Of a stretch of DNA of 64,000 nt, positions 30,356 through 57,345 are shown piece by piece. The first letter of the stretch is position 1. The number at the start of each line of letters is the position of its first letter. This DNA comes from Hydra vulgaris. Lineage: Eukaryota > Cnidaria > Hydrozoa > Anthoathecata > Hydridae. The translations under genes and the position numbers were made by a program. The notes beneath the pieces are model-generated. The model was not told the origin of the DNA, searched no databases, and saw only the letters and a list, made by a program, of their open reading frames with translations. The stretch spans positions 8,311,501 to 8,375,500 of the forward strand of contig NC_088922.1 of the NCBI RefSeq assembly GCF_038396675.1. The letters run 5' to 3'.

Positions 30356-30805
30356 TTAGATGAATTCTGGTTCTTGGACACATTCAGGTGCTTCAGCTGA
30401 TTCTGGTACAGGAATATAAAAATGGAATAGTTCTTCCTGTTTTGCTTCTATAACAGCACTTGGATATACTGCGTTCGGTGGCGAATAAACAGGTGGTAGA
30501 TTTTTAATCATGCTTTCTTCATATGTTGGTAGTCGTGGTATTTTATTTTTATATTTGTTAAAAATATCATTTCGATGAATTACTTTACACATGTTGAGTA
30601 AAAATTCCAATTTACTTTCTAAGCTTTCATGAATATTTCCATTATAATCTTCTATGGCATTATCTTTGATATACTCTACAAGATCGTATGCGTTTTTTAA
30701 TTTTTATTTGATACCATGTGGAAGTATTAACACGAATCTAATACTTCTAACGTTTTCAAAAGTGAGCTCATCAGTTATTTGTCTGAAAACTTCCATTGCA
30801 TTCAT
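30356..30805 (-). CDS. Death-effector-domain protein with PPxY and LPxY motifs (one in-frame stop)
   Basis: ATG at 30805 follows acceptor TTTTTTTTAG and leader ATTAACTAATAAAAAAATG. The N-terminal ~90 codons have the DED pattern: an opening helix with ITDELTFENVRSIRFVLIL, an amphipathic middle (NAYDLVEYIKDN), and a last helix ending LEFLLNMCKVIHRNDIF, whose RND corresponds to the RxDL signature of DEDs. DEDs assemble FADD, caspase-8 and FLIP; viral FLIPs use them to block that complex. The tail carries LPTYEE and PPVY, ligands of WW-domain (NEDD4-type) ubiquitin ligases. An in-frame TAA at 30704-30706 interrupts the DED. DED identity is by eye; a Pyrin or CARD fold is less likely. Only one DED is present, unlike the two in viral FLIPs. 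Confidence 0.7.
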
Positions 30806-30933
30806 TTTTTTATTAGTTAATCTAAAAAAATAATGTATAATAATTATAGATAAAAGTACAAAAAACATATAAAAAAATAATGTATAACAATTATAGAACA
30901 AAGTCAAAATTTATTTCTTTATAGAAAAATATA

Positions 30934-32012
30934 TTATTGAATAGTAATCGTTATAAATAAATTATTGTTAATAATAAATTGTTTTAGTTCTTCGTGTGAA
31001 ATAAAATTGTTATAACCAACAGCTACATTATATTCAACGGTAGGTTTATCAAAAGAATTATCGTCTAAAATTTGAAGATAATTATTATTGGTAGTAGTAC
31101 AAGTATAAAATTTATCTTTATCTCTCAAGGTTAAATTGACATTTTTGGTAAAAGGCCATTTTAAAGCATCGTCAAGGTCACCTCGTAATAATTGAAAGTA
31201 AATGGCTAGTTTGTTTACGTCGGTACTTCGAGTATAAACTTTTATACGATAACGATAACTTTCTGATGTGTAAACGGGTTCTGAATAAAATGGTTCATTT
31301 GATAATAGTCTGATATTCATTTGATCAAGTTTGATGATTTGCGTGTCTTTAAAAACGTGTTGTATTACCTTTAGTTCTTTAGGTTGTTGAATTGAATTTT
31401 TTAAAGCTAAGAATTCTGTGCTGTTTTCTTCTACGATTTGATAAAGTTTTGTTATTTCTTGATTGAGATGTTCTGTATCGTGTTGATTGGCTAAAACCAT
31501 CATGTTGTCATAGAAGAGAATTTTTAATTCTGCCATTTCTTTGTTCATTTTTGATAGGGTTTGATGAAGTTTGACATTATCTTCTTTTAGATTTTTAATT
31601 TCTTGCTCTTTTTGTTTAGAGTCAACTATTTGTTTAGTTGAAATTTCTTGAACATTCTTCATTCCATTCATGATATGATTAATAGAAAGATTCAAATAAT
31701 GTAATTTTTTCATTTCGTCTTGAATTATTTGGTTCAAATAACGATTTTGTTGTTCTTTATAATATCGTAAGCATATAACAGAGTGTTCATAATAATCTTG
31801 ATCATCCACTTTGGTATTACAAAAAAACATATTTTTTGTATGTCTAGAAATTCATAATCACATTCGTGGTTTAACAAATCTTGTACCTTTTTCTTACATG
31901 TTAAACATTCGTGAGAGTATTGCTCTGTAGAACAATCTGTTTGATGATTTAAAAGTTCTTCTGCACTAAATTCTTTGTCGCAAAAACAGCAAGGATATAT
32001 GTTGTCTGCCAT
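30934..32012 (-). CDS. TRAF-like protein: zinc fingers, coiled coil, TRAF-C (one frame shift)
   Basis: ATG at 32012 has the TTTTTTCAG acceptor and CTACTAATAAAAAA leader. The first ~70 codons have paired CxxC..H..C fingers (CCFCDKEF, HQTDC, CLTCKKK), like TRAF-type zinc fingers. A one-base frame change in an A run near 31830 lies between fingers. Next come ~110 residues of heptad-rich coiled coil, and a C-terminal TRAF-C/MATH domain with FYSEPVYTSESYRYRIKVY, then the diagnostic DDALKWPFTKNVNLTLRD, and VGYNNFISHEELKQF near the end. TRAFs trimerise and bind TNF-receptor tails, leading to NF-kB and JNK signalling. There is no RING, so it would lack ligase activity and could act as a dominant-negative decoy. 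Identification of the TRAF-C domain is strong. Confidence 0.85.
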
Positions 32013-32080
32013 TTTTTTATTAGTAGCTGAAAAAAACATTTATTTATATAAAAAACTATAAAAAAATATACATGTCTTTT

Positions 32081-32269
32081 TTAACATAAAAGAGATAATA
32101 AATAAATAAAATGACTCAATAAAACATATAAAAGAATAAAAACATAAATGAGGTTCGTTTCAATATCTTCTTGTTCTTGTTCTTTGTTAAAAGTTACATT
32201 TTCTACTTCTTCATTTAAATAATCTCCAAATCCAGGAAACATATCTTCAAAATCATCATTATTATTCAT
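32081..32269 (-). CDS. Small single-pass membrane protein
   Basis: This 62-residue frame starts with ATG after the acceptor TTTTTTTTTTAG and leader ACAACTAAAAAATG. The N-terminal half is strongly acidic (NNNDDFEDMFPGFGDYLNEE). The C-terminal half is one hydrophobic segment of about 22 residues (LIYVFILLYVLLSHFIYLL). It would sit in a membrane with a short tail on the far side. No family is recognised. It lies between the TRAF-like gene and the acidic-repeat gene in the same minus-strand block. Confidence 0.6.
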   Translation of the reverse strand: MNNNDDFEDMFPGFGDYLNEEVENVTFNKEQEQEDIETNLIYVFILLYVLLSHFIYLLSLLC

Positions 32270-32318
32270 TTTTTAGTTGTCTAAAAAAAAAAAGATATAT
32301 TTACAGATAAAAAAATAA

Positions 32319-32739
32319 TTACAAATAAAGTTCGGGTAAATCGTCCATTTTATTAATGACGTTTAAAATATATTGCTCCCAATCCATTTCATTTAAAATC
32401 TTATGAATTTCTTTTTCTATTTCTTCCACTTCTATTTCCTCTTCTTCTAACATTTGTGATTTTAGCTCTTCAATATAATCTAATTCTTCCATTTCTTCCA
32501 TTTCTTGTACTAATTGTTCTAAATAACTTTCATAATCTTCCTCTGTTAACTCTTCCATTTCCATTAATTCTTGTAAATCATGTTCTTCTTCTTTCGACAA
32601 TAACAAGTCGTGGTAACAAATAGTTTCTTCATTGATATATTCACCATAACTAAAAGAAAAAAATATATAAAAAATATAAAAAAAATATAAAAAAAGTAAA
32701 ATAGGCTTACCATCCACATTTTTTGATATATTGCTTCAT
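32319..32739 (-). CDS. Glu-rich helical protein with one intron
   Basis: Two exons: 32711-32739, a 61-base intron (GTAAGC ... TTTTCTTTTAG), and 32319-32649. Splicing preserves the frame and joins ATG at 32739, which follows acceptor TTTTTTAG and leader CAAACTAATATATTAAAAAA, to a very acidic protein. The body is dominated by Glu/Met/Leu (MEEMEELDYIEEL and similar), consistent with long charged helices, and contains a YGEYINEETI stretch near the start. There is no recognisable domain. The canonical GTAAGC donor makes this one of the clearest introns in the element. Confidence 0.7.
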
Positions 32740-32788
32740 TTTTTTTAATATATTAGTTTGCTAAAAAAATAAAAAAGTTACAAAAAAA

Positions 32789-33103
32789 TTATTGCAATAT
32801 AAAATTTGTAATTATTTTCATAGTTATTTCTATATTTTTTTTAAGTTCTAAATTATTTTCTTTTGTTGAAATGTCAAGAGACCAATTCCATAAAGCATCA
32901 TATAAAGCACGAGCTGCTTCGATTTCTGTTCCTTTTTTTTGATATATTAAGTTTAAAAGTCTTATCATTCTTTCGTTGATATTATGGTAATCACATTGTA
33001 TACATTCGATTTCACGTTTTTTGTAGTCAAGATATTCTGCTAAAGTTTGCCATTGTGTTTGCAAATGTGCTGCTATTATTAGTTTTAATTGCATAAAATT
33101 CAT
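32789..33103 (-). CDS. Death-domain protein 1
   Basis: This complete 104-residue frame has its ATG preceded by TTTTTTAGCAAAAAATA. Nearly the whole length fits the death-domain pattern: a Trp in helix 2 (QTQWQTLAEYLDYKK), the I..I spacing of helix 3 (EIECIQCDY), the L...L of helix 4 (MIRLLNLIYQKKGTE), and the A..L..AL of helix 5 (RALYDALWNW). Death domains are six-helix bundles that pair death receptors with FADD, TRADD or RIPK adaptors. With no other domain attached, a viral copy would be expected to act as a competitor. It is adjacent to a second death-domain gene with the same order of motifs. No catalytic part. Confidence 0.7.
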   Translation of the reverse strand: MNFMQLKLIIAAHLQTQWQTLAEYLDYKKREIECIQCDYHNINERMIRLLNLIYQKKGTEIEAARALYDALWNWSLDISTKENNLELKKNIEITMKIITNFILQ

Positions 33104-33136
33104 TATTTTTTGCTAAAAAATATTATATAAAAAACA

Positions 33137-33427
33137 TTAATAATTTAATATAACTAATTTACAATGTAATAAATTAAATAAAAGTTCTTGCTTGTCGGTT
33201 TCAATTTCCCATCTTGTTAATACATAATATAAATGACTAATAGCTCTTTCTTTATTTTTGTGATGTTTAATATAAATAAATAAAATTTTTTTGATTTTAT
33301 CAAAGTTCTTGATGTAATTTATATCGAATTTTTTAATTTCGTTCTTTTTAAAATTTAAATAAATTTCCAATTGCTTCCAATGTGAGTGAAGTTCTTTTGC
33401 TATGGTATTTATTATTATTTTTATCAT
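33137..33427 (-). CDS. Death-domain protein 2
   Basis: This is a paralogue of the neighbouring gene, intact at 96 residues. It shows the same death-domain layout: IAKELHSHWKQLEIYLNFKK, a helix with EIKKFDINY, IKKILFIYIKHHKN, then HLYYVLTRW. Sequence drift is larger than in the neighbour, and the charge pattern differs, being more basic. The two genes lie 33 bases apart, probably from tandem duplication. The upstream acceptor is weaker (TATTCTATTATATATAAAATAG). It is predicted to act as a stand-alone death-domain adaptor or decoy. Confidence 0.65.
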   Translation of the reverse strand: MIKIIINTIAKELHSHWKQLEIYLNFKKNEIKKFDINYIKNFDKIKKILFIYIKHHKNKERAISHLYYVLTRWEIETDKQELLFNLLHCKLVILNY

Positions 33428-33569
33428 TTTTTATTCTATTATATATAAAATAGTTAAAAAATAGTAATATAATTGTATATCAAAATATTAATGTATATAA
33501 AAAAATTAAAAAAAGACTACAAAAAATTTATTTTCTATAAAGAAATATACAAAAAAAATATACAAAAAC

Positions 33570-33992
33570 TTTCATAAAATATCACTTTCTATATATGGAT
33601 CTGGACTCTTTAAAAAAAAGACAGAGAGAATGTTAAAAAATTATACTTTTTTTATAAAATAAAAAAGGATCAAGTTCAACTTACAAGGAGAGTAGTCCCA
33701 ATGTGATGGTACTACTTCTCTATTTCTTGTGTTTTCATGTCTTTCTCGAGCTCGATGAAGAAATCGATGAAGCTTTTCCATGTTTTTATCTGTAAAAAAA
33801 AAAAAAGTTTTTTATAAAAAAAGAATTTTTTTATTTTTATATAAAATAATATAAAAAATTACCTAATATAGGTGAATATGGTTGCACGTGAGAAAAAGGA
33901 ATTTTTTTCCCATTTTGAATGATGTAATGGTTTTTAAAAAAACCATCATGAATAACTTCATATTTGATTTTATTAATTGTAATGTATTTCAT
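33570..33992 (-). CDS. Small protein with two introns
   Basis: Three exons can be read: 33863-33992, 33685-33789 and 33570-33598. The first intron runs from GTAATT to TTTTTACAG. The second runs from GTAAGT to CCAG after a pyrimidine-rich tract. Splicing keeps one frame from ATG (after acceptor TTTTTTAG and leader TAAAAAAATG) to TGA. The product is about 87 residues: an N-terminal part with beta-like segments (MKYITINKIKYEVIHDGFF), a basic helix (KLHRFLHRARERHE) and a short acidic tail. No family is recognised. The third exon boundary is the least certain. Confidence 0.6.
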
Positions 33993-34094
33993 TTTTTTAC
34001 TAAAAAATATGAGTTGTTTTAAATAAAAAATACCGTGTTGTTTTTTGTAATAATTAAAATAGTTATAAATATAAAATTATCATTTTTTATAAAA

Positions 34095-35345: not shown

Positions 35346-35359
35346 GAAGGTAGTAGAAA

Positions 35360-38358: not shown

Positions 38359-39504
38359 TTACAAGTTAAACACTGCGTCTCGTGAAGATGTATTTTGGCA
38401 GCTCTTTAATCGCGTCTCTTTGGCGGTCTTTAATCGCGTATTATTGTTTGCATAAATTCTATCCATTTCATTTTGAATCATATAATAAATATTCTCCTCG
38501 TTCATCACAGTTGGAATGGCTTGAAAATCCAATAGTGATAATTTGTCCCATGTAGCTTCATAATTTGTTTTTAAGAATCCTGCATCTTTTAAAAAACTTT
38601 TAATAGCATTTTGAGCTAATATTTGTTTTTCATAAATATCATAATTCAAAGGAACTTGTTTTGTTTTCATAGACAATAGATCACGTTCCAGATTTTCCTG
38701 TGTTTTCATATATAAATGCAAATGCATGTCTTTTTCAAACAGTTGTTTTGCAGTGTTATCAAGGTGTGGAAAGAGCTCTTGTTTAATAAATTGAAAAAAT
38801 GAATAGAGATTTATCTGAACTAGTGAAGAGGCATGAAGAGTTGTTACTTCATCAAAATAATGGTTTAACAGTCTGCACAACAAAGGTAAATATATTTGAT
38901 CTGTATATAATACATTTTCGCTGCGAAAGACTAGAGCTACAAAATAAGCGGCAAATGCTCCACATAAACTATTATCATTCCATTTCGAAGGAAATTTATT
39001 GTATAAAAAAAATACGTTTTGATTGCCAGTGATTTCGCTATATTTTAAAATAAATTTGGTACACAAATAAAATTCACAATTTTCTGATGTTCATTCTGTA
39101 GGAACCTGATTGGATTGTCTTATATAAGAATTAATTTCAATTTCGTTGTAGTTGATGTTAATAGTGTTAATTTGTATATTGCTATTGACTTCTTCTACTG
39201 CTTCAAACAAGTATTTATTAAATCTTAAATGTTTTGGAATTTGTTGCAATACACTTTATTCACCTAAACTATCAAAACAAAAAAAATGACCTTTGTCTAT
39301 TTTCATCAACACTCTCCAATGTTGACAAGCTTCTTTTGTAGATTCATTGTTGTAAATGATAAAGGAGCCATTTTTTTTCATTGGTTGAATAATATGAATA
39401 TGAGTTTTTGTTTGACTTAGTTCATCAAAAGCATATATTCCTATAAAATAATTTTTAAATTCTGAATTTTTAAAAACACGAGACAAAGATTCATCAGTAG
39501 CCAT
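38359..39504 (-). CDS. Adenain-type cysteine protease (two in-frame stops)
   Basis: One minus-strand frame from ATG at 39504 to 38359 contains both halves of a C5/C48-type protease. The first part has the catalytic His in ACQHWRVLMKIDKGHFFCFD, whose following Asp fits the acidic member. After an in-frame TAA (39256-39258) and a TGA near 39093, the second part has the catalytic Cys in NDNSLCGAFAAYFVALVF. In adenoviruses and Polintons this enzyme cleaves virion precursors during maturation. A long helical C-terminal extension (about 150 residues) is unusual for adenain. The two stops make the copy inactive unless read through or due to sequence error. It is transcribed opposite to the core genes. 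Confidence 0.75.
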
Positions 39505-39508
39505 TTTT

Positions 39509-40149
39509 TTATTCTTCTTTTTCTAAATTTAAAAAACTCCCAATAAATAGTGTTACAATAGCGTGTAATATATTAACAAATAAAGTTTTTTTATCGCCGG
39601 TTCCTTCCTTTATAATTCCTTCAATGTTTCTTTTAACTGATATTTTTTTTAAAGCACCATCTAGTTTTTCTATCCAATAAGAGACGGTAGGTATTACTTT
39701 TGTACTAAACGTATCCACGAAACCGTCAGTTTGATCACCCTCTGTTAGATCCATAGTATGTTTGATATCTCTTTCTAGTAGTAAAAGAGTTAACTTGGCT
39801 TTATAGAGTTCTATTACATAATTATCACCGTGTATTTCTTTCAAATCATCAAAGTAGTTGAGATGAATAAAACAAAGTTGAGGAGTTTCGAGTAATTTAT
39901 TAAATTGACTGTTTTTAAACATTTTGCAATACTGTCAGAATTTAATGTTATCCTTTTTGAATCGAGTACATTTTGTAAAAAGTCAAACGATTTTTTATCT
40001 GTAAAATGTTCTTCTCCTACGTGATCAGATGAAGGTGAAGAATTTCCAGATTTGTGTTCATAATGTTTATGTCTTTTAGACACTTCATCAAGCGCGCACA
40101 CTGCGCAATTGTTATGAATTTTTTTAATGATGCTATCAACGCGATTCAT
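39509..40149 (-). CDS. Tail-anchored helical protein (one frame shift)
   Basis: ATG at 40149 begins a frame with CAVCALDEVSKRHKHYEHK, a His/Cys-rich start. A one-base change near 39925 leads into a second frame ending at 39509. The latter is helical, with GFVDTFSTKVIPTVSYWIEK and then a C-terminal hydrophobic segment (LFVNILHAIVTLFIGSFL) followed by a short acidic tip. That is the topology of a tail-anchored membrane protein. The W in SYWIEKLDGAL and the terminal anchor recall Bcl-2 family proteins (BH2 and tail), but BH1 and BH3 are not clear. It could equally be an unrelated virion or membrane protein. It ends 4 bases before the protease ATG. Confidence 0.5.
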
Positions 40150-43560: not shown

Positions 43561-43580
43561 ATTTTTTTTAGATAAATAAA

Positions 43581-44078: not shown

Positions 44079-44122
44079 ATTTTTTATGTAATCTTTTTTT
44101 TTTGTTTAGATTAGTAAAAATT

Positions 44123-44719: not shown

Positions 44720-44772
44720 AACATTTATCTGTATAATTTTTTTATATTTTTTTTAGATAACTAATTAAAAAA

Positions 44773-45183: not shown

Positions 45184-45218
45184 TCAATTAACTGTATAAT
45201 TTTTTTTAAGATTAAGTA

Positions 45219-45721
45219 ATAAGAAATATAGATAATGAAAAATGGTCTGAAGATCGCATTTGGTTTGACAAAAGTTGTAAACTACATTATTCTGAAAAGG
45301 AATTGTGGAATAATTTAGAATTATTATCACCTGTATTTTATTTTCCTTTGTTGTCCTTGAAGAATTTTTTACCAAAGATGATCATCAAGATGGAATATTG
45401 GCTCAATTTGAAAAAATAACAGAAATTATAAATAAAAATAACGACCTGATCAAAAATCATCTCAATATACGTCATTTTTTAATGGAATTGTTAAATTACA
45501 TGAATATCATTTGCAATGTTGCAATTGAAGAAGACGAGTTTATTGTAACAAAAGAAAAAGAAGAATTTGCAAGAGGAGATGATGTCGTGTTCTCTTATAT
45601 AAAATCAAACGTAGACATGAAAAATTTTCATTATATTTCAAAGCACGAAGAAAGATTATTGTTAAAAAAAACAATTAAAAATTATTTTATGGCTACTCTT
45701 ATAAATATTTTTAACGAGTAA
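45219..45721 (+). CDS. Hypothetical protein (one frame shift, no clear ATG)
   Basis: An acceptor-like TTTTTTTTAAG is followed by AATAAGAAATATAG where ATG would be expected. The coding-like part NEKWSEDRIWFDKSCKLHY leads to a frame change near 45360. The second part (45398-45721 and slightly upstream) is intact and ends at TAA. It is helical with acidic patches (EEDEFIVTKEKEEFARGD). Family unknown. The start and middle suggest the same decay seen in other genes. Confidence 0.45.
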
Positions 45722-45786
45722 CCTATTTTTTTAAAGTTTTTTTTGTACTTTAAAACTTTGTGTTTTTTAGGTAAACTAATAAAAAA

Positions 45787-46317
45787 ATGGGTTTTCTTCA
45801 AGAATTTAAATGGATTTTAAATAGAAAATACATATCTCATAAATACAAAAAGTTGGATAAACTTAATGTAGATATTGCTGACGAATATAAAATAGTAAAA
45901 TATTTTGTTAAATATGGTAAAGATTTTAAAGATTTTGTTAAAAATTTTCACGACAACATTTTAAATAAACCAATAGATGAATTGAATAAATTAATACGAG
46001 AAGATGCTGAGAAAGATGGTTTTATAGACAGATTAAAAACTTTGCAACCGTATATGCAAGCCATGTACAAATTATTTACGACAAATCAAGAAAATATCGG
46101 ATGGCTTAAAAGAGAAATAGCAGTAGATAAAGAAAAACAAAAAGAAAAAGATGTCGCTATGTTCGATTATATTGAAAAAAATGTCCCTGAATTTCGCAAA
46201 GACATAATGAATCATTTTTCTTTTGTCAATAGGACCAAAAAAACAATACGTATTCGCGAAGAATTACAACGTTCTTTTTTAAAAACAATGGAATATTTGA
46301 GTACTTTTTTTGATTAA
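45787..46317 (+). CDS. Hypothetical helical protein
   Basis: This intact 176-residue frame has leader AAACTAATAAAAAA after TTTTTTAG. It is highly charged and helical (KYKKLDKLNVDIADEYKIV; NKPIDELNKLIREDAEKD; KEKQKEKDVAMFDYIEK). No Cys cluster or membrane part. It may form a long helical bundle or coiled coil. Family not recognised. Confidence 0.6.
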   Translation: MGFLQEFKWILNRKYISHKYKKLDKLNVDIADEYKIVKYFVKYGKDFKDFVKNFHDNILNKPIDELNKLIREDAEKDGFIDRLKTLQPYMQAMYKLFTTNQENIGWLKREIAVDKEKQKEKDVAMFDYIEKNVPEFRKDIMNHFSFVNRTKKTIRIREELQRSFLKTMEYLSTFFD

Positions 46318-46354
46318 ATTTTTGTATTTTTTTCTTTAGATTACATAAAAAAAA

Positions 46355-46540
46355 ATGGTAAAATTAACAGTACGAGCAACTAATAGCTTTATGACACCTG
46401 TTGTTACCACATCACGTTATATAGAACTATGTGTAAATTCTCAAAAAACTAAAATTTTTTATGTAACGAACGAACCAACGAAAAACTTTTATAATTTTTA
46501 TTGTATTTTTTTAGATTACATAATAAAAAATGTCTTTTAA
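46355..46540 (+). CDS. Small hypothetical protein
   Basis: ATG at 46355 follows TTTTTCTTTAGATTACATAAAAAAAA. The plausible coding part is about 48 residues (VKLTVRATNSFMTPVV, YIELCVNSQKTKIFYV). The last ~15 codons run into the pyrimidine tract and leader of the next gene, so the true stop has probably been lost by a one-base change near 46485. Function unknown. Confidence 0.4.
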   Translation: MVKLTVRATNSFMTPVVTTSRYIELCVNSQKTKIFYVTNEPTKNFYNFYCIFLDYIIKNVF

Positions 46541-46778
46541 TCTTCAAGTCAATAATCTCATCACAAAACTTTTATTATCAACAGCTGTTATTCACGATCA
46601 AACTCAAACGATTGGGAGGTTATTGGATGAAGCAGAATCTTGTCCGAAAGAAACTTGTAGAGGCTTAAGTACTTGTGAATCTTGCAAAGAAACATACGAA
46701 TTTGTGCGACGTCATATTCATGAAGAAAATATTAAAAAAACTGTACTTGAAATGTTTGAAAATTATACTTTATTATAA
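46530..46778 (+). CDS. CxC..C family small protein 1
   Basis: This intact 82-residue frame has leader ATTACATAATAAAAA. A helical N-terminus (LITKLLLSTAVIHDQTQTIG) leads to a Cys cluster (CPKETCRGLSTCESCKETY) and a C-terminal helix. The same layout, helix then CxC..CxxC then helix, recurs in the genes at 47135, 47916, 48200 and 48453. They form a tandemly amplified family of probable zinc-binding miniproteins. The function is unknown. Confidence 0.6.
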   Translation: MSFNLQVNNLITKLLLSTAVIHDQTQTIGRLLDEAESCPKETCRGLSTCESCKETYEFVRRHIHEENIKKTVLEMFENYTLL

Positions 46779-46829
46779 ATTTTTTTGTAATTATTTTTTT
46801 GTCAATATTTTAGGTTACATAATAAAAAA

Positions 46830-47105
46830 ATGGATGTGGTTTGTGAATTTGAAATTGTTAAAAACAAAGAAGGAAGCTTTGACAACAACGTTGTTCGTTA
46901 CAGCAATGTTCCTCAAGATTTTACAAGACTAACTTATTTGAATTCTAAAGATTTTTTTATGAATGAAATGTCTTAAGAAGAATTTGACGAATTTGTAAAA
47001 CAAGTGCGACAAATCAAACCTAAAAAACTGAAAAAATATTCAGAAGAAAAAATTTTTAAAAAAGGAAAAAGAACTTTTATTAGAAAGTCGAATTGTTATT
47101 TTTAG
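46830..47105 (+). CDS. Small hypothetical protein (one in-frame stop)
   Basis: ATG at 46830 follows TATTTTAG and leader GTTACATAATAAAAAA. The frame MDVVCEFEIVKNKEGSF... reaches an in-frame TAA at 46974-46976, then continues with EEFDEFVKQVRQIKPKKL and a basic end to TAG at 47103-47105. Both parts have coding character in one frame. No domain recognised. Confidence 0.5.
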
Positions 47106-47134
47106 GTCGGTGATTTAGTGAAAAGGATTTTGAA

Positions 47135-47345
47135 ATGTGTGAAAAAGTATCAATAAAAATAGGAATTACAAAAACATTACTCAAAGTTATTTGTAAAATA
47201 CGTGATTTTGTTTAAGATGCTTTATGTAAAATAGCTCAATGTGAATGTTCCCTCATTGGGTATTTTGTAATTTAAATGCTTGTCACATTTATGTTGAATT
47301 AAGAAGAATTTTTGGTTATAATTTTTTCGGTAGAATTTTTAAAAA
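47135..47345 (+). pseudogene. CxC..C family copy, decayed
   Basis: ATG at 47135 opens MCEKVSIKIGITKTLLKV, reaches TAA at 47213-47215, then LCKIAQCEC. A frame change near 47255 leads to FCNLNACHIYVELRRIFG. The order of helix, CxC and later Cys matches the paralogues at 47916 and 48200, so this is a broken member. It lacks the clear leader of the others. Confidence 0.45.
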
Positions 47346-47377
47346 AATTTTTTTTTTTTTAGATTACATAATAAAAA

Positions 47378-47686
47378 ATGTCAACCTTGAAAAATTTCGA
47401 TTCAAGTAAAGATTTTGTTGAATATGCTGCCATCAAAGAATTTGTTACAAGTTACAGTGATGATTATGTCAGAACTTTGGAAGAATTTGATATTGTTAGA
47501 GAAGTAGTCAAGAAAGATCTCGATTTTGATGATTTTTTAGAATATGTTGCAAATTCTGATCCAAGTGGTGAATTAAAAAGAAAAATGCTTTCAACAGACG
47601 ACTGTGATTCTATTCCATGTAAGACTCTTCTACAACTTGTTGATTTTCAAGATAAAGCATGTGCTAGTTGTCGAGAGATATATTAA
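47378..47686 (+). CDS. Acidic small protein
   Basis: This intact 102-residue frame has the standard leader ATTACATAATAAAAA behind a long T tract and TAG. The N-terminal two thirds are acidic and helical (SKDFVEYAAIKEFVTSY; VREVVKKDLDFDDFLEYV). The end carries a loose Cys set (DDCDSIPCKTLL, DKACASCREIY). It may be a distant member of the CxC..C family. Function unknown. Confidence 0.55.
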   Translation: MSTLKNFDSSKDFVEYAAIKEFVTSYSDDYVRTLEEFDIVREVVKKDLDFDDFLEYVANSDPSGELKRKMLSTDDCDSIPCKTLLQLVDFQDKACASCREIY

Positions 47687-47797
47687 AATTTAAATATATA
47701 TATTTACGTCAACGATTTTATAATTAAATTTCAAATGGAAACTACTAAATAATTTTTATATTTTTATATTAAATTTTTTTTAGATTACATTATAAAA

Positions 47798-47860
47798 ATG
47801 GAAAAAAATATAATGTTGGCTCGTAAAAAATTGGGATTGAGCGAAATTTTTCTATATTGA
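47798..47860 (+). pseudogene. Truncated CxC..C family copy
   Basis: A standard acceptor and leader (TTTTTTTTAGATTACATTATAAAA) precede an ATG whose frame (MEKNIMLARKKLGLSEIF) resembles the start of the 48200 gene but stops at TGA after 20 codons. The gene body is missing. Confidence 0.5.
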
Positions 47861-47915
47861 ATTTTGATTAAATTTTGTATACATTTTTTTGTTTTTTTTT
47901 AGATTACATAAAAAA

Positions 47916-48152
47916 ATGGAAACTAATACAATAAAAATAAATACAACGACAATTGATACAAAGTCGGTAGCATATAAATTGGGTATACCAGAATATACGT
48001 TAATAGAAAATTTACACTGGGTTAGAAGTCAAATTTTGAGTTTGTTATCGTGTCCATGTACAAGGAACAACATGTGTTTAAATTGTCAAACGATCAAAGA
48101 TGTTATTGGATTGCATCGCTCTATTTATTTAGATAAATGGCCAAAAATTTGA
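47916..48152 (+). CDS. CxC..C family small protein 2
   Basis: This intact frame of 78 residues has leader ATTACATAAAAAA. It contains YKLGIPEYTLIENL, then the Cys core SCPCTRNNMCLNCQTIKDVI, then a short helical end. The Cys core fits a single zinc knuckle. It is closest to the 48200 gene (shared SQIL, CPC and TIKDVI strings). Tandem duplication is evident. Confidence 0.6.
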   Translation: METNTIKINTTTIDTKSVAYKLGIPEYTLIENLHWVRSQILSLLSCPCTRNNMCLNCQTIKDVIGLHRSIYLDKWPKI

Positions 48153-48199
48153 AAAAATTTATTGTAATTTTTTTATATTTTTTTTAGATTACATAAAAA

Positions 48200-48448
48200 A
48201 TGGAAAATAATATAATGATGAATGGAAAAAAATTAGATTTAACAGAAGATTTATTAAAAAAAATTATTGAATATCGTCAAAGTCAAATTTTGAGATTGTC
48301 AGTGTGTCCATGTCAAAGGTTATGTTCAAATTGTAAAACGATCAAAGATGTGATTATATTTATCGAACGCCATTTATGGATGAAAATAAACACTTTTTTA
48401 TATTTTGTTAATAATTTTTTGTTGTCAATTTTTAGATTACATAATTAA
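48200..48448 (+). CDS. CxC..C family small protein 3
   Basis: ATG at 48200 follows TTTTTTTTAGATTACATAAAAA. The family pattern is clear: KKLDLTEDLLKKIIEYRQSQ, VCPCQRLCSNCKTIKDVI, then a helix. The last ~25 codons run through the T-rich spacer of the next gene, so the normal stop was probably lost near 48385. It is likely functional up to the Cys core. Confidence 0.55.
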   Translation: MENNIMMNGKKLDLTEDLLKKIIEYRQSQILRLSVCPCQRLCSNCKTIKDVIIFIERHLWMKINTFLYFVNNFLLSIFRLHN

Positions 48449-48452
48449 AAAA

Positions 48453-48824
48453 ATGGAAATGAAACTAGATGACATTATATTAAAAGCTTCAAAAAAAATG
48501 GATTTAACTAAAGAACAACTCTTGGAAATTTATGAAAATCAACAAAAAAGGATTGATTTTTTAGCCGAATGTCAACGTCAAGAATACGACGAATATAATT
48601 TTCTTTGTTTGAGTTGTGATTATTCTGTGGATACAGTAAAAGAATTTTACAACATGATAGTATAAGCTTCTAACAAGCTTGGTTTATCGGTGGATTTATT
48701 AAACAAAACTTTTCATATTTATAAATACGAAATACGTGAGTTAGCTAGTTGTAATTGTGTTTTGGAACAAATGTGTGATGATTGTAAATTTAAAAAATTT
48801 TTGGTTTATCGATGGATTCATTAA
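48453..48824 (+). CDS. CxC..C family, two-domain copy with in-frame stop
   Basis: ATG at 48453 starts a first family unit (ILKASKKMDLTKEQLLEIY, then Cys residues in CQRQEYDEYNFLCLSC). An in-frame TAA at 48663-48665 separates it from a second unit in the same frame (ASNKLGLSVDLLNKTFHIY, then SCNCVLEQMCDDC) ending at TAA 48822-48824. The tandem units show internal duplication. The stop position aligns with Lys in the first unit. Whether the second unit is translated is open. Confidence 0.55.
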
Positions 48825-48891
48825 ATAAAGTAATCATCTGTTTTCTTTATTTCATTTTTTAACAATATTTTTTTTAGATTACATAATAAAA

Positions 48892-49347
48892 ATGGAATTA
48901 ACAGAAAATGATTTGGATTTTTAAATGAAAAGCATATACAAATTCAATCAAGTTCACCCAGCTACTTCGGAAGAAATTTGAATGTATGCGATTACTTCAA
49001 GACAAATTTTATGCCATCATTGTAAATGGTATTATTTGAAATACAAGTGGGATGGATTTTTCAATGAAGAAATGAAAAGAATACCTTTTATATTGATTTT
49101 GATGGTCTCTCAATATATTAAAACTCATTATCATGTTTATTTAAATTTAAATTTTGAAAGTTTTTATGATTTTTATAAAATGTTATCTAAAGAAGATTTA
49201 TTAAATCATGTAAAAGAAAAATGTGTAGAAATTGAAAATTGTAAACATTATTTAAACGAATGTGAAGAGTGCGATGAATATAGATATTCTGATAGGGTAA
49301 GTTGTTCGTTTATATATTGTGAAAAATGTTTTGATTCAGTATATTGA
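48892..49347 (+). CDS. Cys-rich hypothetical protein (two in-frame stops)
   Basis: The standard leader ATTACATAATAAAA precedes ATG at 48892. The frame meets TAA at 48922-48924 and TGA at 48979-48981, then is open to 49347. The open part has RQILCHHCKWYYLKYKW, a helical middle, and a Cys-rich end (NECEECDEYRYSDRVSC; CEKCFDSVY). The start suggests decay of the N-terminus, or a downstream ATG (48982) may be used. Probable zinc binder; function unknown. Confidence 0.45.
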
Positions 49348-49365
49348 TTGTAATTTTTTTTTTAG

Positions 49366-49584
49366 ATGAATAAAATAAATGAAAACAAAAACTTGTTGGA
49401 GTTATTAAACAATCATAACACACAAATAAATGTAGTAAACGAGAATGAAATGTTAGCTGTGAAATTTTTATTACTTGTTAATGGGAACAATTTTTCAACT
49501 CGATTAGAAAAACTTTTCAATAGGAGCATTATGTTTATGATACTTTTTATAAAATACGGTGTAATGTATTTATATTCCAAATGA
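49366..49584 (+). CDS. Small tail-anchored protein, copy 1
   Basis: ATG at 49366 lies immediately after TTTTTTTTTTAG. The 72-residue product has an Asn-rich helical N-terminus (NKNLLELLNNHNTQINVV) and a C-terminal hydrophobic segment ending FIKYGVMYLYSK. The next gene encodes a close relative with the same ending. Probably membrane-anchored at the C-terminus. Unknown function. Confidence 0.5.
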   Translation: MNKINENKNLLELLNNHNTQINVVNENEMLAVKFLLLVNGNNFSTRLEKLFNRSIMFMILFIKYGVMYLYSK

Positions 49585-49623
49585 AATTTTTTTTAGATAA
49601 ATAATATTAATGAAAATAAAAAA

Positions 49624-49827
49624 ATGTTGGAAAAGATCATAAATATGAATTCTTTGGTGAAAGAAAATTGCGAAACTTTAACTGCCGACGAAATAGCATC
49701 TTTAAAATTTTTGCTAAATGAAAACGATAGTGACTTTTTATTTAAAATACGAACAAATTTAAATTTTCAACTTATTTTTTTGTTCTTTTTTATCAAGTAT
49801 ACTTATATGTACTTTTATTCAAAATAA
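49624..49827 (+). CDS. Small tail-anchored protein, copy 2
   Basis: This paralogue of the preceding gene has LTADEIASLKFLLNENDSD, then a hydrophobic tail (LIFLFFFIKYTYMYFYSK). An upstream in-phase ATG near 49610 is possible. The leader is GATAAATAATATTAATG after TTTTTTTTAG. Intact at 67 residues. Confidence 0.5.
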   Translation: MLEKIINMNSLVKENCETLTADEIASLKFLLNENDSDFLFKIRTNLNFQLIFLFFFIKYTYMYFYSK

Positions 49828-49860
49828 AAATACGTTCTTTGTAAGTAAATAAAAAAAAAT

Positions 49861-51094
49861 ATGTTATCTTTGCAACAACAAAAAGCACTTCAATGGCATG
49901 ATGAAGGAAAAAACTTTTTTATTACTGGTGGCGCTGGATGTGGAAAAAGTTATATTGTCAACCAAATTGCTCAAAGTGAACAAATTTATAAAACAATACA
50001 TATTACTGCGAGTACAGGAAAAGCAGCTTATTTAATCAATGATGTCACAATACATGCTTTTGCTGGTGTATAGAAACTGGTGTTAAAAGTGTAGGTTATT
50101 ATAAACGTCATATGCATCCAGACATTAAAAAAACGTGGTTGGAAACTGATGTTTTAATTATTGATGAAATTTCAATGATTAACGCTTCAACATTTGATTT
50201 ATTACATTTAATAGCTTGTGAAATTAGACAATGTTATGATGAATTATTTGGTGGTGTACAAGTTATTGCTTGTTATGATTTTTTTCAGTTGCCACCTGTC
50301 ACAGGACAATTTGTTTTTAAATCACAAATATGGCAACACTACATGAGGGAAGTGTTGGTTTTAACTCAATGCTTTAGACAAAAAAAGGATAAACATTTTT
50401 TTGGAGCTTTAAATGAAATACGTTTTAGTTAAGTTTCAGACCAAACTATTGATTATTTTATGACGCGTTGTTTTGAAATAGATGAAAATTTAAACTCTAA
50501 CTATACGAGATTATTTTTTAGACATATTGAAGAGGATGTTTATAACAATCAAAAAATGGAGACTATCAAACAAGAAGGGTTTTGGTTTTATGCTAAAAAT
50601 GTTATTAAAAATCGAAATATTCCATGCGCGTTTCAAATTCCAGCAGCTGTTTATCTTAAATAGGTGCTATTGCTATGCTTGTAAGAAATATTAATGTGGA
50701 AGTAGGTTTGTGCAATGGTACTATTGGTACAGTCCTTTTAATAGAAAATAATGCAGTTTGGGTTAATATGAATAAAAAAGAAGTCAAAATTGAGTGTGTC
50801 AAAGAAGAAATTTTAGATTGCTCTCATGCTGTCGTAGGCTCAAGATTTGGTTTACCTTTAAAATTAGCATTTTCTTTTACTGTTCATAAAGCTCAAGGAA
50901 GAACAATGAATAAAGCCATTGTTCAATTTAATTCAAAGGCATTTATTAATAGTCTTTATTATGTTTCTTTTTCACGAGTTTGTAATATTAATGATATATT
51001 TATAATTATTAATAATAAATATGATTTACGAACACTATTTAAAAGTATTACTGTTGATTCTGATGTTTTGGAATTTTATAAAAAATACATGTAA
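49861..51094 (+). CDS. PIF1-type DNA helicase (two frame shifts, one in-frame stop)
   Basis: The N-terminal part has the Walker A motif in FITGGAGCGKSYIV and motif Ia (ITASTGKAA). After a frame change near 50070 come Walker B (VLIIDEISMI), then FGGVQVIACYDFFQLPP and VLTQCFRQ, fitting superfamily 1B motifs III and IV. TAA interrupts at 50430-50432, and a further frame change is near 50660. The C-terminal part has FTVHKAQGRTMNKAIVQF and YVSFSRV, motifs V and VI. PIF1 helicases unwind DNA 5'-3' and assist polymerases. The gene lies just upstream of the polymerase. A Helitron origin is unlikely, as no Rep domain is present. The breaks would abolish a full-length product. Confidence 0.85.
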
Positions 51095-51117
51095 ATTTTT
51101 TTTAGATCATTAAAAAA

Positions 51118-54100
51118 ATGAAATTTGAATATCAAATTGAGGAAACTCAATTTAGTAATAACAGTATATACACTGAACATTTCTTTTACATTAAAGACGA
51201 TTATAAAGATGATGATATTGTGGAAGAATCACAACTTTATTCAGAAACTCAAAGTCCTGATGAAATTGTTTATCACGTTGAACAAAAAACAATGGAAGGA
51301 TTTGAAACAGAAATGAAAAATAGTAATCTTTTTGCAGACTTGTTCCAAAATTTCTTATTGGGTTATAATATTGTTACTTTGTGTTGCAAATCTATTGGAA
51401 ATGGATATTGTAAAATAATGAAACGTTGTTACAATTCACTTGTTTATTTTATTAAACCTTTAGAAGGACCGACTAATTTACGTTTTATTCAAGATGCCAA
51501 TGTGCGAGCTGTTTTTAATATTTTAGAAAACGATAGCGGATGGAGGTTGATACGAATAAAAAATATTAAAATTAAAACTCTATCTAATCTAACAGTAAGA
51601 TCCATGATGAAATTACAAAATTTTAAATTTTCTGGTTTTAAAACAAAAATGCTCATGACAGATGAGTTGAAAAAAAGAAAAAAATCAACAAAACCTATTA
51701 CAAAAAAAATTAAAAATTACTTAATCAACGAAAGAAACAAAAAAAACAACAAAAGAGAAAAGAAGTCGACGAATGGTTTGGTGAATGGTATAGACCTCAT
51801 TTTATAACACAATGAGAAAAATCCCTAAAAAGTCTATCTTCTACTAAACACTCTTATGAACAAAAAAGAAAAATGTTTTTAGATGATAGCATTTTGTTCG
51901 AGTCAGAATAATGTTTTTATCCAGCTTTTCTCATCTCTTTGTTGATTCGCCAATGGAATATGTGCACCGTTAAAGAATGGAATAAAAAAGTGTTGGAAAA
52001 AAATGCTACCGATTTATATTCTGAAGAAATTATTTTACAGCTTCTATTTGAAGATCAAGAAGAGCAAAATATTGTAGCTTGGAAAATCGTTTTACAACAA
52101 TTTAAAGAAAAATCTAAAAATATGTCATTTCAAACTTTGATTGATTTGTGTTATTCTTTTGCTTACGAAAATACTTTTGATCGTATTAAGATTTAAAATT
52201 TTTGCCGTTAACAAAACTAACACTAAAATTCGTTTGTTGCATTCTAAATTAAAATCACAATATAAAAGTTCTCTTGCAGAATTATTAAAAGTGGTTTACG
52301 AAAGCGCAAGCATTACCAAAGACGATCAAGATTCTCAAAGAGTTTTTATTAATGACGAGGAAAGAAATAAAGCCAATCGACGAAAAAAAACAATCAACAC
52401 TATCAAAATTTTTATTTTTCAAAAAAACAATTCTTTTCACGCTATAAGCATGTTGAATGAAAAATTTTCTACTAGGTATTTTTGTTCTAACAACTCACGT
52501 GTTTTGTTTCAATGTTCAGAATGTGGACAAAAATTTACTACAGAGAAACGCAAATGTCAAGGTTATTATAAACCGGACAAATTTACACACGGCGATTTCA
52601 TTAGTCATTAATGTCTGCAAAATTCGTTCATGTGTACAAGTAGAAACTTATTTCCTTTTTTAATGACATTTGATTGTGAAACGAGTATTACAAAATCTAA
52701 AGATAATGCTACTTCTAAAGTCAAACCTTTATTTGAGTTGAATTATCATTGTCATTCTATTGTGATTCAATGCATTCATGAAAGATTATCAAGAGAATGT
52801 TTTGGTTTGGATAAAGAAGGTCACGTGATTACTCAATGGATTTTTTATTATGAAAATACGGTTGAATGTTTAGAAAGAAATTCTTTAACCTGTCTACCTG
52901 ACTATTTTCAACCAGGAGTTTCTTTACTTTAAAAGACACACCGACTTATCTTGTGGGAAAAGCTAAATTGTGAAAATAATAAAAAATTAAAAATGGAATT
53001 GCGAGTTTACGATTTAATAGCATCAGCAGATACTTTGGCTCGATTTGCTTATGAAATATGTTTACCGCGTTTTCAAAACTTAATTATATCAACTGAAGAA
53101 AGAGATTTAATATGGCAAGAAGAAAATCCATTATGTTCTATTTGTAGAACTCCCGTAGATAAAATACGCCAATCTGGTGTTTATGAAAATAAATTTTTTC
53201 ACATGACTCCTTAAGAAATTGAAAGATTAAATCATAATGAATTTCGTATTTACAACGACAAACGTTTTCAAGTTGTGAACATTGTGTATCAAAGAGTGGG
53301 TCGTTTGGAATTGTTCATGTTACCTTGTCACATTTAAAATTATTTATTCGACAACGATGCTGAAAAAATAAAGCAAGATTTATTTCGAGTATCCACTTTG
53401 TATTACATTTGTTGTAGATGGTGGGAAAAATTTCAATACTTACCTGCCACTAACGATTTGTTGAGTGATTATGTGAGAATAACCAGTGGCGAACTTGTAG
53501 ATTATATGAAACAATTGTCTTTACTTATCATGACCGAACATCAATTTGAAAACTATTTTAATCAAGAAGATATAGAGTTGCTAGAAGATCCCTACTTTTT
53601 AATCGAAATCTTTCGCAAATGTATCAACGAAAGTGGTGGTCAATATACAGATAACCTTCATTTTTTGTTTCTAATGAGAAAATTCAAGCAACCCGTCTAC
53701 GGATTATGGTATCATACCATGTTGGTTGCTTTTAATAATCAATTTGAAACAAAATTTAATTTATCTGATTTTATTCAAGATGAAAAAAATCGAGAAAAAG
53801 TTTTGAATAAATGCAATATTTTTCTCAACGCTTTTGAAGATTATCTTGTTATTGATCACGATCATTTATCAGGACAAGTGTATGGATTAGCTCACGATTA
53901 TTGCAACAAAAATTTGGGTAAATATAATCAACATTTGTGTTGTCCTATTTTTGCTCACAATGCTTCTTTTGATAATCGCATTTTGATTGATGAAGGTTTA
54001 AAAAAAATATTGGATATTCCGTTATACGGTCATTTGGCAGAATCTGAAACTACATTTTTTAACGCTTTTATAAAATATAGCAACATGGAAGATGTTTTTG

Positions 54101-56669
54101 TTATATCTAAAAATGTGAGCAAAGTCAATATTATCTGCATCGGTAAACATATTAAAATTGTGGATAGTTTAAAATTTTTAAACTGTTCCTTAGAACTAGC
54201 CAGTAGTATGTTGTCACGAAAAGCTCAAAATCAAACTGTTAACACCATGTTGCATTATTTACGACGTTTTCATCCCTAAGTGAATGTTTTAACCGACAAT
54301 CAAGAGTATAAAAACTGTTTTATTAAAAAAACATTATTCCCTTACTTGCAAATAACAGACAAACTCTTAAACGTTGAATATAAAACATTTCCACCTATTG
54401 AAATATTTGCTCAAAACGATTTAATAAAGTCTAAAAACTTACAAAAAGAAATTAAAAAAATCAATGAAGCTTATGAAGGTGTTCAAAAATTGTGGAACTT
54501 TTTAAATTTAACAACTTTAAAATCGTTGTTGCATATCTATACTGTGCTCGATACGGTCGTATTAGGTTCTGTCATGATTAATTTTAACGAAAGAACATTT
54601 GAATTTATAAAATTTCATATTCTTAATCATGTTAGCATTTTTAGTTATACCAGCAAATTAAATTCTACCATCAGTTTAATTCCTATCCAATATCCTGCGA
54701 CCAACGAACATCAAAAAATGATTGAAAAGAGTATTCGAGGCGGTATGTCAACCAACGATATACAATAATTCGCCATTTATCCAGATTATTTTGAACCTAA
54801 AATAAAAGAATTCTAATTAAACAGCGAGTTAAGAGGATGTGTAATTTTTATGGACAAAATGGACAATACGGAAGAGCTCAATTAAAACCTTTACCTTTTC
54901 ACATGAAATATTCTTTTAATTTGGAATGTATTACTTTAGACGATGTGATTCGCAAATATCATCGCGTTAATTTAAACGGATTCTCAACTAGCGCTTTAGT
55001 GCATTGCCAAATTATTATGAAACCAGAGTATCAAGATCAAGTAGGAGGTTTTCACCCATGGTAGAAAAATAAATTTTATCCTTTCAAGATTATTCTCCCA
55101 CTAAAATTGTATCCAAACGTTATCTCAAAAACAATGAAACCTGCGGTATAGAAAAAGACAAAACTATTAAATTGGTCATGAAATTAAGTTCGCTTGAAAC
55201 TTGTGAATTTTTAGATACTTTAATGTTGTTGACTACGTGTTATGGATGCGTTGTTGAAAAAATTTATAATGTACTTCCTTTATGGCGTTATCCTTTAGTT
55301 AAAAAAATGGTAAAAAGAAATATGGAAAAAAGAAAAGAAGCTATTAAAAAGGGTGACAAAGTAGTTGATGCTTCTTGCAAATTGCAAATTAACGGTCATT
55401 ACGGAATTTTGAGTCAAAAAATTGCACAAAAACTACGTACTACTTTTATTAACCACGAAGAAAAATCATTTCAAATTAGTATTGAAAATTTTTAATACAT
55501 TCGTCGTGTTTTAATTCAAGAAGGGCAAACAAATGAAAATATTAAAATGTTATTCCCTTTTTTATTTGCAAAATTTATTGTATAACGGATCCTTTTTTAT
55601 TGGTGTTTAACCTGAAAGATATAAATTGGATGTTTTTGAAAAAAAAGTATGTTTAGCTGATTACGAGACTGTTAATTTTAGTTATGATGATTATTTTAAA
55701 GAAACTCTGTTTAGTTTGATGAGTGATGTTAAAACCAAAAGTATTTTATTTCACGATGAAGACAATCATCATGAAATGAAAGACGCCTTTGAACTCTTAA
55801 AATCAAAAGATCATAAAAATGCTCTCATTTTAACAACTAGCGAAAAATGCAAACTCGTTAACACATCTTTACGTATTGTAGCTTCACAAATTTTATCTTA
55901 TGTCAAACTCAACGTAGGACGTTTTAGTTGAGAATTGGGACAAGTATTAAGAAATCATGGAGCCGAAAAACATTTGGTAGTAACAGATACTGATTTTGGT
56001 TGTTTTTTTATTAAGCAAAAGAAACTCAATATGCTTTCTTCAACGTTTCGCGAATAGGTAGAAGAATGGGTTTTCTTTTTCAAGTTTTGGAAATCGTTGG
56101 ATGGATTATTCCAATTATAAAATGACTCATCCTTTTTATTCCACTCTCTACGCCAAAGAAACGGATCATTTTCAAAACAAAATGCCTTCCCCTTATTAAA
56201 TTGCGCAAGCTTTTGCTATGGGACCTAAATGTTATACTGTTCATAGTGTCAACGGAGACGAAGAAAAAAACTATTACATAAATAGAGCTAAAGGAGTACC
56301 TAATTCTAAACTTTTACTTTCAAATTATGTTAACAGAATCGATACCTTTGCTGCAAAAAGATTGTGTAAACAAGTTCCTTTTCCAGTGATAAAAGAAAAT
56401 CAACCTATCGAACAAAATAGAATGAGTGTCAATTACAAACAAGTTAAAATACAAACACAAACTAATGATTTTTTAAAAAGATTTACAAAAAAAATTATGT
56501 TTTTGATGACGGAGTCATGACCGAAATTCGAGATCATTATCTTTTGAAACTAATACAAGAAGCCAATTTAAAAGTGTTACCCGATATGGAAAAATTTTGT
56601 AGCGACGAACACATTCAAAATTTACTTGAATTTGGAAAAAACATTATAAAACAATCAGAACGTTATTAA
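51118..56669 (+). CDS. Protein-primed family B DNA polymerase with HNH-like insert (many breaks)
   Basis: ATG at 51118 follows TTTTTTTTAG and leader ATCATTAAAAAA. Motifs in order are a Cys finger (CSECGQKFTTEKRKC), Exo I (MTFDCETS, ~52665), an endonuclease-VII/HNH-like zinc motif in two parts (CSICRTPVDK and IDHDHLSGQVYGLAHDYC), Exo II (AHNASFDNRIL), GGMS before the palm, motif A region (NFYGQNGQYGRAQLKPLP), motif B (KLQINGHYG) and motif C (VVTDTDFG). This is the Polinton/adintovirus polymerase plan, and it would copy the element with a terminal protein primer. Breaks: TAA at 51909, 52609, 52930, 53212, 53335, 54277, 54766, 54814, 55070, 55493, 55608 and 56197; TAG at 56055; TGA at 51813 and 55929; and about seven frame changes. 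At ~1,840 codons it is long for the family. Confidence 0.85.
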
Positions 56670-56728
56670 ACAATGGCCATTTTTAATCGAAAAGTTTTGA
56701 TCTCTTTATTATAAAATTCTAAAAAGAA

Positions 56729-56735
56729 TATAAAT
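56729..56735 (+). promoter_or_regulatory. TATA box of the 56753 gene
   Basis: TATAAAT in the string AAAAAGAATATAAATTAGG, about 20 bases upstream of the ATG. A near-identical string occurs at 57361-57375 before the next gene. Confidence 0.5.
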
Positions 56736-56752
56736 TAGGAAAATTTTCTTTT

Positions 56753-57345
56753 ATGAATAAAAAAATAGAGTTTTTGTTTAGATCAAAAATCAACAGCGCA
56801 ACAACTTGATAACAAATTAAAATAAATTGGTTTTAAAAAATTTTTTTTAGCAGAAAATACAGAAAACGAAATTTATTATTTTAAAAAAAAAGATTCTTAT
56901 ACCTTGCTTTTGATTCTCATTACTCTTAACGAACGAGATTTAATTCCTGAAGAATTTTTTAGTTGTTGTATCGATTGTTTGATTGATTATTTATATTTTA
57001 AGTGTCACGTTGGATGTTATGAAGAAGATTGTGTTCATTGTGAAGATTACAATAGAATTCATTATCATTGCACATGTCTTTTAGAAAATAAAAAGGATAG
57101 ATAATATATTATTAACAGAAGTGGCAAGACGAATAAATCCAGATTGGAAAACGTGTGGAAGATATTTAAAAGCATGCGAGTGTGAACTGGATCTTATTGA
57201 TGCAGATTAAAGATATATTGAAGAAAAAGCTTTAGAAATGTTAAAAAGATTGACTCGTTATGGAACCAAAGAACAATTACTTTATGCAATGAACAACATA
57301 CCAAGAATGGACATTAGAAAAATTATTTTGGACCGTTTTTTATAA
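56753..57345 (+). CDS. Two-part adaptor with C-terminal death domain (two in-frame stops, two frame shifts)
   Basis: ATG at 56753 leads through a T run near 56775 into a frame with SYTLLLILITLNERDLIPEE and a Cys/His cluster (KCHVGCYEEDCVHCEDYN; HCTCLL). Near 57095 an A run changes the frame, and a death-domain pattern follows: EVARRINPDWKTCGRYLK, ECELDLID, EEKALEMLKRLTRYG, LLYAMNNIPRMDIRK. The W in helix 2, the I..I of helix 3 and the terminal RxDI are all present. In-frame TAA codons fall in the N-terminal part and inside the death domain (about 57208). The layout, an unknown N-terminal module plus death domain, recalls FADD-type adaptors. The DED of true FADD is not evident. Confidence 0.65.

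Follow-up and report, generated by a model that had tools for sequence, protein, structure and literature searches.

A candidate set of TRAF, death-domain and DED genes in a partly decayed virus-like element of Hydra vulgaris

Why would a virus-like element in the genome of Hydra vulgaris carry genes for the adaptor domains of death-receptor signaling? The question is raised by a 64,000-nucleotide (nt) stretch of contig NC_088922.1 (assembly GCF_038396675.1, positions 8,311,501 to 8,375,500), hereafter the window, in which all coordinates are given. A sequence-only reading had placed six genes with DED, death or TRAF-C domains within one element at this locus. We recovered four of the six with curated profiles (two TRAF-C and two Death) and a third death domain by rank, and the DED is only suggestive. 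The presence of an adaptor-domain gene set within a cnidarian virus-like element is supported. As a whole, the region that bears these genes is best explained, by a slight balance of probability, as a partly decayed, integrated Polinton/adintovirus-like DNA virus or self-synthesizing transposon of Hydra. The original observation is thus partly confirmed and largely holds, and its interpretation is partly supported.

Two of the genes encode TRAF-C/MATH domains. One domain, at 30934..31851 on the minus strand, matches PF21355 (E-value 1.2e-18) and PF22486 (6e-17) above the Pfam cut-off and has TRAF matches in the PDB. The other belongs to a TRAF-C/MATH-only protein encoded on the plus strand by an open gene (44123..44719, in an open reading frame (ORF) spanning 44036-44719), which matches PF21355 at 2e-16, also above the cut-off, and likewise has PDB TRAF matches. 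The first of these genes (30934-32012) had been described as combining zinc fingers, a coiled coil and TRAF-C. The TRAF-C domain stands, but the N-terminal part (31734..32039, minus strand, with the gene start at 32012) is in another frame, with a frame change between it and the TRAF-C part, and its two CxxC...H...C finger-like motifs gave only sub-cut-off Pfam matches (zf-Di19, 0.0022; zf-C2HC_2, 0.028). The coiled coil before the TRAF-C domain is a candidate from a simple heptad count without a control (best register 0.57 versus 0.32 hydrophobic). The gene begins at its fingers. A RING domain is a feature of canonical TRAF2-6, and Pfam gave no RING match in 31734-32039, 30934-31851 or 44036-44719. 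With the 44123 protein as query, a search of about 5.8 billion proteins gave 23 candidates. Two of them qualify as relatives at E ≤0.001; both are Hydra vulgaris proteins, one called TRAF1-like and the other TRAF2-like. These are 178 and 180 amino acids (aa) long, consist of TRAF-C only, and share 80% and 70% identity with it by BLASTP (85% and 75% in an alignment), as would fit a Hydra host and a multi-copy gene.

Two death-domain-only proteins are encoded by open genes on the minus strand, separated by 33 nt. The 32789..33103 gene (ORF to 33112) matches PF00531 above the cut-off (4.3e-8), and its PDB sequence matches are the death domains of THOC1 (0.00067) and ankyrin-1 (0.039). Its tandem paralogue at 33137..33427 (ORF to 33430) also passes the cut-off (PF00531, 9.1e-6); the PDB sequence search with it found no death domain and a single unrelated match (E 0.92). 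The two share 26% identity across 73 aa (E 9e-8, one pairwise comparison), and the two MATH proteins are 25% identical over 128 columns. With identity this low, each pair is old or fast-evolving. A third death domain, at 57085..57342 on the plus strand, is broken by an in-frame stop at 57208-57210, and the upstream part of its gene (56753-57345) lies in another frame. Its two open pieces have no Pfam Death match. In the PDB, the death domains of RIPK1 and FADD were the best two of three matches to 57097-57207, with E-values (0.43 and 0.83) that are not significant alone.

Given the in-frame stops in the third death-domain gene and in the candidate DED gene, the open pieces of each were searched separately. 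We built profiles from stretches of five host death domains and eight host DEDs, whose parent proteins had Death or DED matches in Pfam. Every stop-to-stop segment of the window with 30 aa or more, 883 in total, was then ranked against these profiles with hmmsearch and hhalign. The death-domain profile placed the same three segments on top by both methods: 32792-33112 (88%), 57085-57207 (82.7%) and 33140-33430 (74%) by hhalign, where the fourth segment reached 5.5%, and E-values of 1.6e-6 for 32792, 2.3e-6 for 33140 and 0.0024 for 57085 (third of 883) by hmmsearch. The second piece of the third gene, 57211-57342, ranked 63rd of 883. A third death domain, in the form of the half-domain 57085-57207, is supported by this ranking.

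The DED profile gave a less clear-cut result. The candidate gene (30356..30805, minus strand), proposed from motif resemblance, carries an in-frame stop (30704-30706) that splits it into the open pieces 30707-30805 and 30356-30703. By hhalign the longer piece ranked second and the shorter fifth of 883, at the complementary profile positions expected of each half; in the hidden Markov model (HMM) search the pieces took fifth and seventh place, with E-values of 0.27 and 0.47. Other segments outscored them: 60403-60864, 49597-49824, 11741-11836 and 41120-41209 all stood above both pieces in the HMM scan, and by hhalign 49597-49824 stood above both and 60403-60864 and 41120-41209 above the shorter piece only. 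Neither piece matched Pfam; the long piece had no PDB match, the short piece matched only unrelated esterases at E 0.8, and a protein search with a DED piece gave no relative. A structure model of the longer piece was of low confidence, too weak for a fold search (predicted local distance difference test (pLDDT) 61, predicted template modeling score 0.26). Because other segments of the window score equally or better, the DED is in our view not demonstrated, and we regard it as likely that 30356-30805 encodes a DED protein. Of the DED, Death and MATH hits on which the sequence-only reading had staked its claim, profile searches returned Death and MATH, and the DED was left with no significant match. 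Elsewhere in the window, two similar short ORFs lie at 49366-49824 (plus strand). One of them, 49597-49824, tops the hhalign ranking of the 883 against the DED profile (25%) and is perhaps half a DED; its companion, 49366-49581, ranks 559th.

The adaptor genes lie both beside and between other genes of the element. The window is ORF-rich from about 27.8 kb through to its end. Provided that the sequence from there to beyond the window is one element, its length exceeds 36 kb; the window edge cuts it, and its right end seems to lie beyond. On the plus strand we identified a dUTPase (43572..44078; PF00692, E 2.7e-21), a PIF1-like helicase broken into several open pieces (49849..51094; PF05970 at 2.7e-9 and 6.7e-18, and PF21530, the 2B domain, at 1.2e-7), a family-B DNA polymerase split over many open pieces and including an endonuclease VII-like stretch (52612..56520; Endonuclease_7, 2.3e-5), and weakly matching, broken pieces of an rve-type integrase with an LQTDQGGEF-type motif (59765..60867). 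The polymerase was recognized by an ExoI-type FDCET at 52669, an ExoII-type HNASFDN near 53959 and a motif-B-type KLQINGHYG at 55379. Pieces of a candidate adenain-like cysteine protease on the minus strand (38359..39522) were picked out by eye, from motifs only (HW...FDSLG and ...LCGAF); they had no Pfam match, and 39256-39522 had no relevant PDB match.

Accessory genes, the adaptors among them, form two arrays, each on one strand. The left array occupies 27824..34050 on the minus strand. The right array (43572..51807, plus strand) holds the dUTPase, the open TRAF-C gene, small Cys-motif proteins and the PIF1 helicase. Gaps among ten ORFs of the right block measure 53, 37, -11, 51, 47 and 4 nt, and also 603, 401 and 229 nt, so that most leave scant space for promoters, though three of the nine exceed 200 nt. 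The small proteins include a tandem family of CxC...CxxC type at 46530-48665 (46530, 47378, 47916, 48200 and 48453), of which four were scanned and none passed the Pfam cut-off. In the left array, tandem paralogues at 28700-30141 (minus strand) share a T-L-K-[DE]-L-C-K-R motif, and the two scanned had no Pfam match. Apparent GT...AG introns were seen by eye within two accessory genes, at 32650-32710 and 33790-33862 (minus strand).

How well does the Polinton label fit? The polymerase motifs and the rve-like piece favor it, and we consider it plausible, not fully shown. Several results count against it. The DNA_pol_B_2 match to pieces of the heavily broken polymerase gene falls below the Pfam cut-off (E 0.029), and a pattern search of those pieces found no motif A or C. 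The rve match, on 59914-60147, is also below the cut-off (0.0076). In the window we found no capsid protein and no packaging ATPase of FtsK/HerA type, although the ATPase gene might be broken or might be located past the window edge; a P-loop pattern had three matches in the six frames of the window, and the one inside the element is the PIF1 helicase. Terminal repeats were not found, and the 25 inverted pairs inspected, out of 62, did not include a terminal one. The adaptor set has weaknesses of its own: neither DED piece is significant alone, and three of the six adaptor genes (the DED, the 30934-32012 TRAF and the third death-domain gene) are broken or interrupted. For this last reason the copy looks decayed, with the polymerase, helicase and integrase also in pieces and 32789, 33137 and 44123 open. 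With no capsid protein, packaging ATPase or terminal repeat found, we call the element Polinton/adintovirus-like and do not file it as a member. A PDB search with a polymerase piece returned nothing relevant, and IMG/VR scans with the 62670 ORF described below, the TRAF protein, a helicase piece, two polymerase pieces, a TRAF alignment and the start motif yielded no confirmed relative. Recoding of stops was dropped by reasoning, as it is required neither by a 422-aa open ORF nor by those accessory ORFs that are open.

The element might instead derive from another large DNA virus, of the nucleocytoplasmic type, integrated in Hydra. A dUTPase and a PIF1 helicase also occur in such viruses, and this counts in favor of that origin. 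Inserts of nucleocytoplasmic-type viruses reported in Hydra vulgaris also speak for it (PMC5294986). The rve-like piece, below cut-off as it is, and the order of the polymerase motifs nevertheless suit Polintons better, and we judge a nucleocytoplasmic origin very improbable.

How might so many closely packed genes be expressed? Accessory ORFs start 8-22 nt past a T-rich tract followed by AG, frequently TTTTTTTAGATTACATAATAAAAAATG or TTTTTTTAGACAACTAATAAAAAAATG, with an A-rich spacer before the ATG. In the left array this motif precedes starts at 28090, 29468, 30221, 30805, 32012, 32269, 32739, 33103, 33427 and others, and in the right array those at 44123, 44773, 45787, 46355, 46530, 46830, 47378, 47798, 47916, 48200, 48453, 48892 and others. 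For a strict pattern, expected counts in the arrays were means of 200 order-2 Markov simulations each. This pattern occurs five times in 27800-34100, always on the minus coding strand (0.28 expected), and eight times in 43200-51200, always on the plus strand (0.285 expected), with a simulation maximum of 2 in each case; it is absent from the core blocks 34100-43200 and 51900-64000 and occurs twice in 1-27000 (0.77 expected). A looser pattern has 17 matches in the left array (16 minus; 3.3 expected) and 19 in the right (18 plus; 3.7 expected), against maxima of 10 and 12 in 200 simulations, and 34 of these 36 are on the coding strand. Outside the arrays, one core block has 1 match (3.2 expected) and the other 5 (3.0 expected), and the flank has 11 (10.8 expected). 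A consensus form occurs 11 times in the window, 10 inside the element and 1 outside, versus 0.27 expected for the whole window. All patterns were drawn up post hoc from inspected sequence, the looser one after the adaptor starts had been seen. None of the 13 strict matches is at an adaptor start, and the looser pattern fits five of the six, the exception being 56753, which fits neither.

We infer that the T-tract and AG sites may be spliced-leader trans-splicing acceptors and the arrays operons; alternatively, the motif could belong to promoters or stem from upstream sequence that was copied. In the Hydra RFC140-flp operon, as described in PMC3273482, a T-rich stretch precedes the downstream gene, whose expression requires the trans-splice AG. 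The two cases are alike in their short intergenic region (417 nt there) and in the T-rich tract and AG acceptor that precede the downstream start, but RFC140-flp is a host operon tested with transgenes, whereas the mobile-element case is read from sequence (PMC3273482). Roughly 30% of Iso-Seq reads from Hydra transposable elements are reported to bear spliced leaders, with Maverick not among the most expressed types (PMC12220107). Taken together, the locus could represent a Hydra DNA-virus lineage that combines a TRAF/death/DED module kit aimed at death-receptor signaling with two opposite-strand operons, host spliced-leader trans-splicing and start motifs confined to accessory genes, a composite proposal that we offer tentatively and hold to be rather less probable than its contrary.

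What, then, might the adaptor proteins do? Their ORFs are short, and either domain-only or RING-less with finger-like motifs, and Pfam detected no RING, caspase or kinase domain in them. The accessory genes would include a set of host-derived adaptor modules cut down to docking domains: two TRAF-C proteins in which no RING was detected, three proteins with a death domain and, probably, one with a DED. The arrays may be transcribed from few promoters and split into single mRNAs via spliced-leader trans-splicing at the T-tract and AG sites. The products could then bind host TNFR/death-receptor adaptors (TRAF trimers and FADD-like death-domain and DED assemblies) as effector-less decoys, and death and NF-kB signaling would be blunted during element replication. 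The decoy role is proposed because RING-less TRAF-C proteins and lone death domains or DEDs dock but relay no ubiquitin-ligase or caspase signal; RING-less TRAFs and lone death-domain or DED proteins can be dominant negatives. Decoy inhibition of TNFR/death-receptor adaptors is the likeliest function, one that we place a little above even chances. The combined program against, or exploiting, host apoptosis and NF-kB signaling that the sequence-only reading had put forward is an inference.

The same element could, on the other hand, encode adaptor proteins that activate death or NF-kB complexes, killing or stimulating host cells for release or proliferation. An iridovirus vTRAF, ISKNV ORF111L, speaks for activation and shows that decoy inhibition is not the sole precedent, as this protein is reported to bind TRADD and induce caspase-8-dependent apoptosis (PMC3352826). 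On account of this TRAF, activation ranks next after the decoy function. We nonetheless consider it unlikely, as scans of a selection of the element ORFs turned up no domain of the caspase, kinase or RING type, and several types of bare docking module together suit decoys at least equally well.

A different objection is that the TRAF, death-domain and DED genes are Hydra host genes that either neighbor a decayed transposon unrelated to them or were joined to it in assembly. Two contigs, of 45.7 and 73 Mb, indeed carry Hydra vulgaris homologues of 44123 with TRAF annotations, and the right end and terminal repeats of the element were not seen. Yet these homologues are TRAF-C-only and 178-180 aa long, as expected of further element copies, and the adaptor genes flank and interleave with element genes. 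Five of the six share the looser acceptor-like motif with element ORFs of unknown function, spacing is tight, and 32789, 33137 and 44123 are each one open ORF. Misassembly of host genes is disfavored because the start motif is shared and the spacing tight, and we regard a host-gene origin as improbable. Similarly doubtful is the idea that the adaptor genes are no anti-host weapons and are captured cargo that excludes competing elements or viruses, or are already domesticated by the host. The open state of 44123, 32789 and 33137, set against the broken polymerase, helicase and integrase, speaks for this, but the DED gene, the third death-domain gene and one of the TRAF genes are likewise broken or interrupted.

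Compared with known systems, the element favored here resembles Polintons/Mavericks and adintoviruses in its family-B polymerase motifs, rve-like piece, candidate adenain-like protease and character as a large, gene-rich element of an animal genome. It differs in its adaptor-domain battery and its length, and in the core components not found. vFLIPs of gammaherpesviruses and poxviruses are DED docking proteins with no caspase, carrying two DEDs in tandem; the resemblance would lie in such a bare DED protein, of which the Hydra element has at most one, as yet unproven. ISKNV ORF111L is also a TRAF-like protein from an animal DNA virus, but it is one gene in a fish iridovirus, whereas the Hydra element is integrating and has two TRAF-C genes as well as death domains (PMC3352826). 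A polinton of Hydra vulgaris, polinton 1 (P1-HM), appears by name in a legend of PMC11071308. According to PMC11071296, most mammal-associated adintoviruses seem to carry genes for anti-apoptotic homologues, candidate oncogenes or both. Anti-death cargo in general is therefore already known, and what is new is the set of several adaptors. The sequence-only reading knew of no Polinton-type element with such a set, and full-text literature searches likewise found none: no adintovirus or polinton report named a death domain, papers retrieved for polinton, Hydra, apoptosis and capsid included none about such an element by title, and polinton or maverick was absent among the matches listed for TRAF, FADD, vFLIP and TNF receptor terms combined.

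A few further features complete the window. A 422-aa open ORF at 62670..63938 (plus strand) is perhaps a virion protein and was considered as a candidate double jelly-roll major capsid protein; a protein search and IMG/VR scan found no homologue, the PDB gave no relevant match, a phage tblastn gave only two insignificant matches, and its structure model (pLDDT 31) was uninformative and too weak for a fold search. At its start, two perfectly matched 29-nt arms separated by a loop of 3 nt form an inverted repeat (62656-62716). Tandem direct repeats of about 51-nt units occur at 35325-35717, and a protein kinase domain fragment was identified in the left flank (9541-10287, minus strand; PF07714, 1.6e-23). 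There was no Rfam match and no tRNA in the window.

The gene content suggests that this element may once have jammed or hijacked host cell-death and alarm pathways. If so, viruses of an early-branching animal would already have targeted TNF-receptor/death-domain signaling, with several captured modules at once, and Hydra would offer a laboratory host in which viral targeting of death signaling could be tested. The gene-start pattern, if it is what it appears to be, would represent a DNA virus-like element employing spliced-leader operons.

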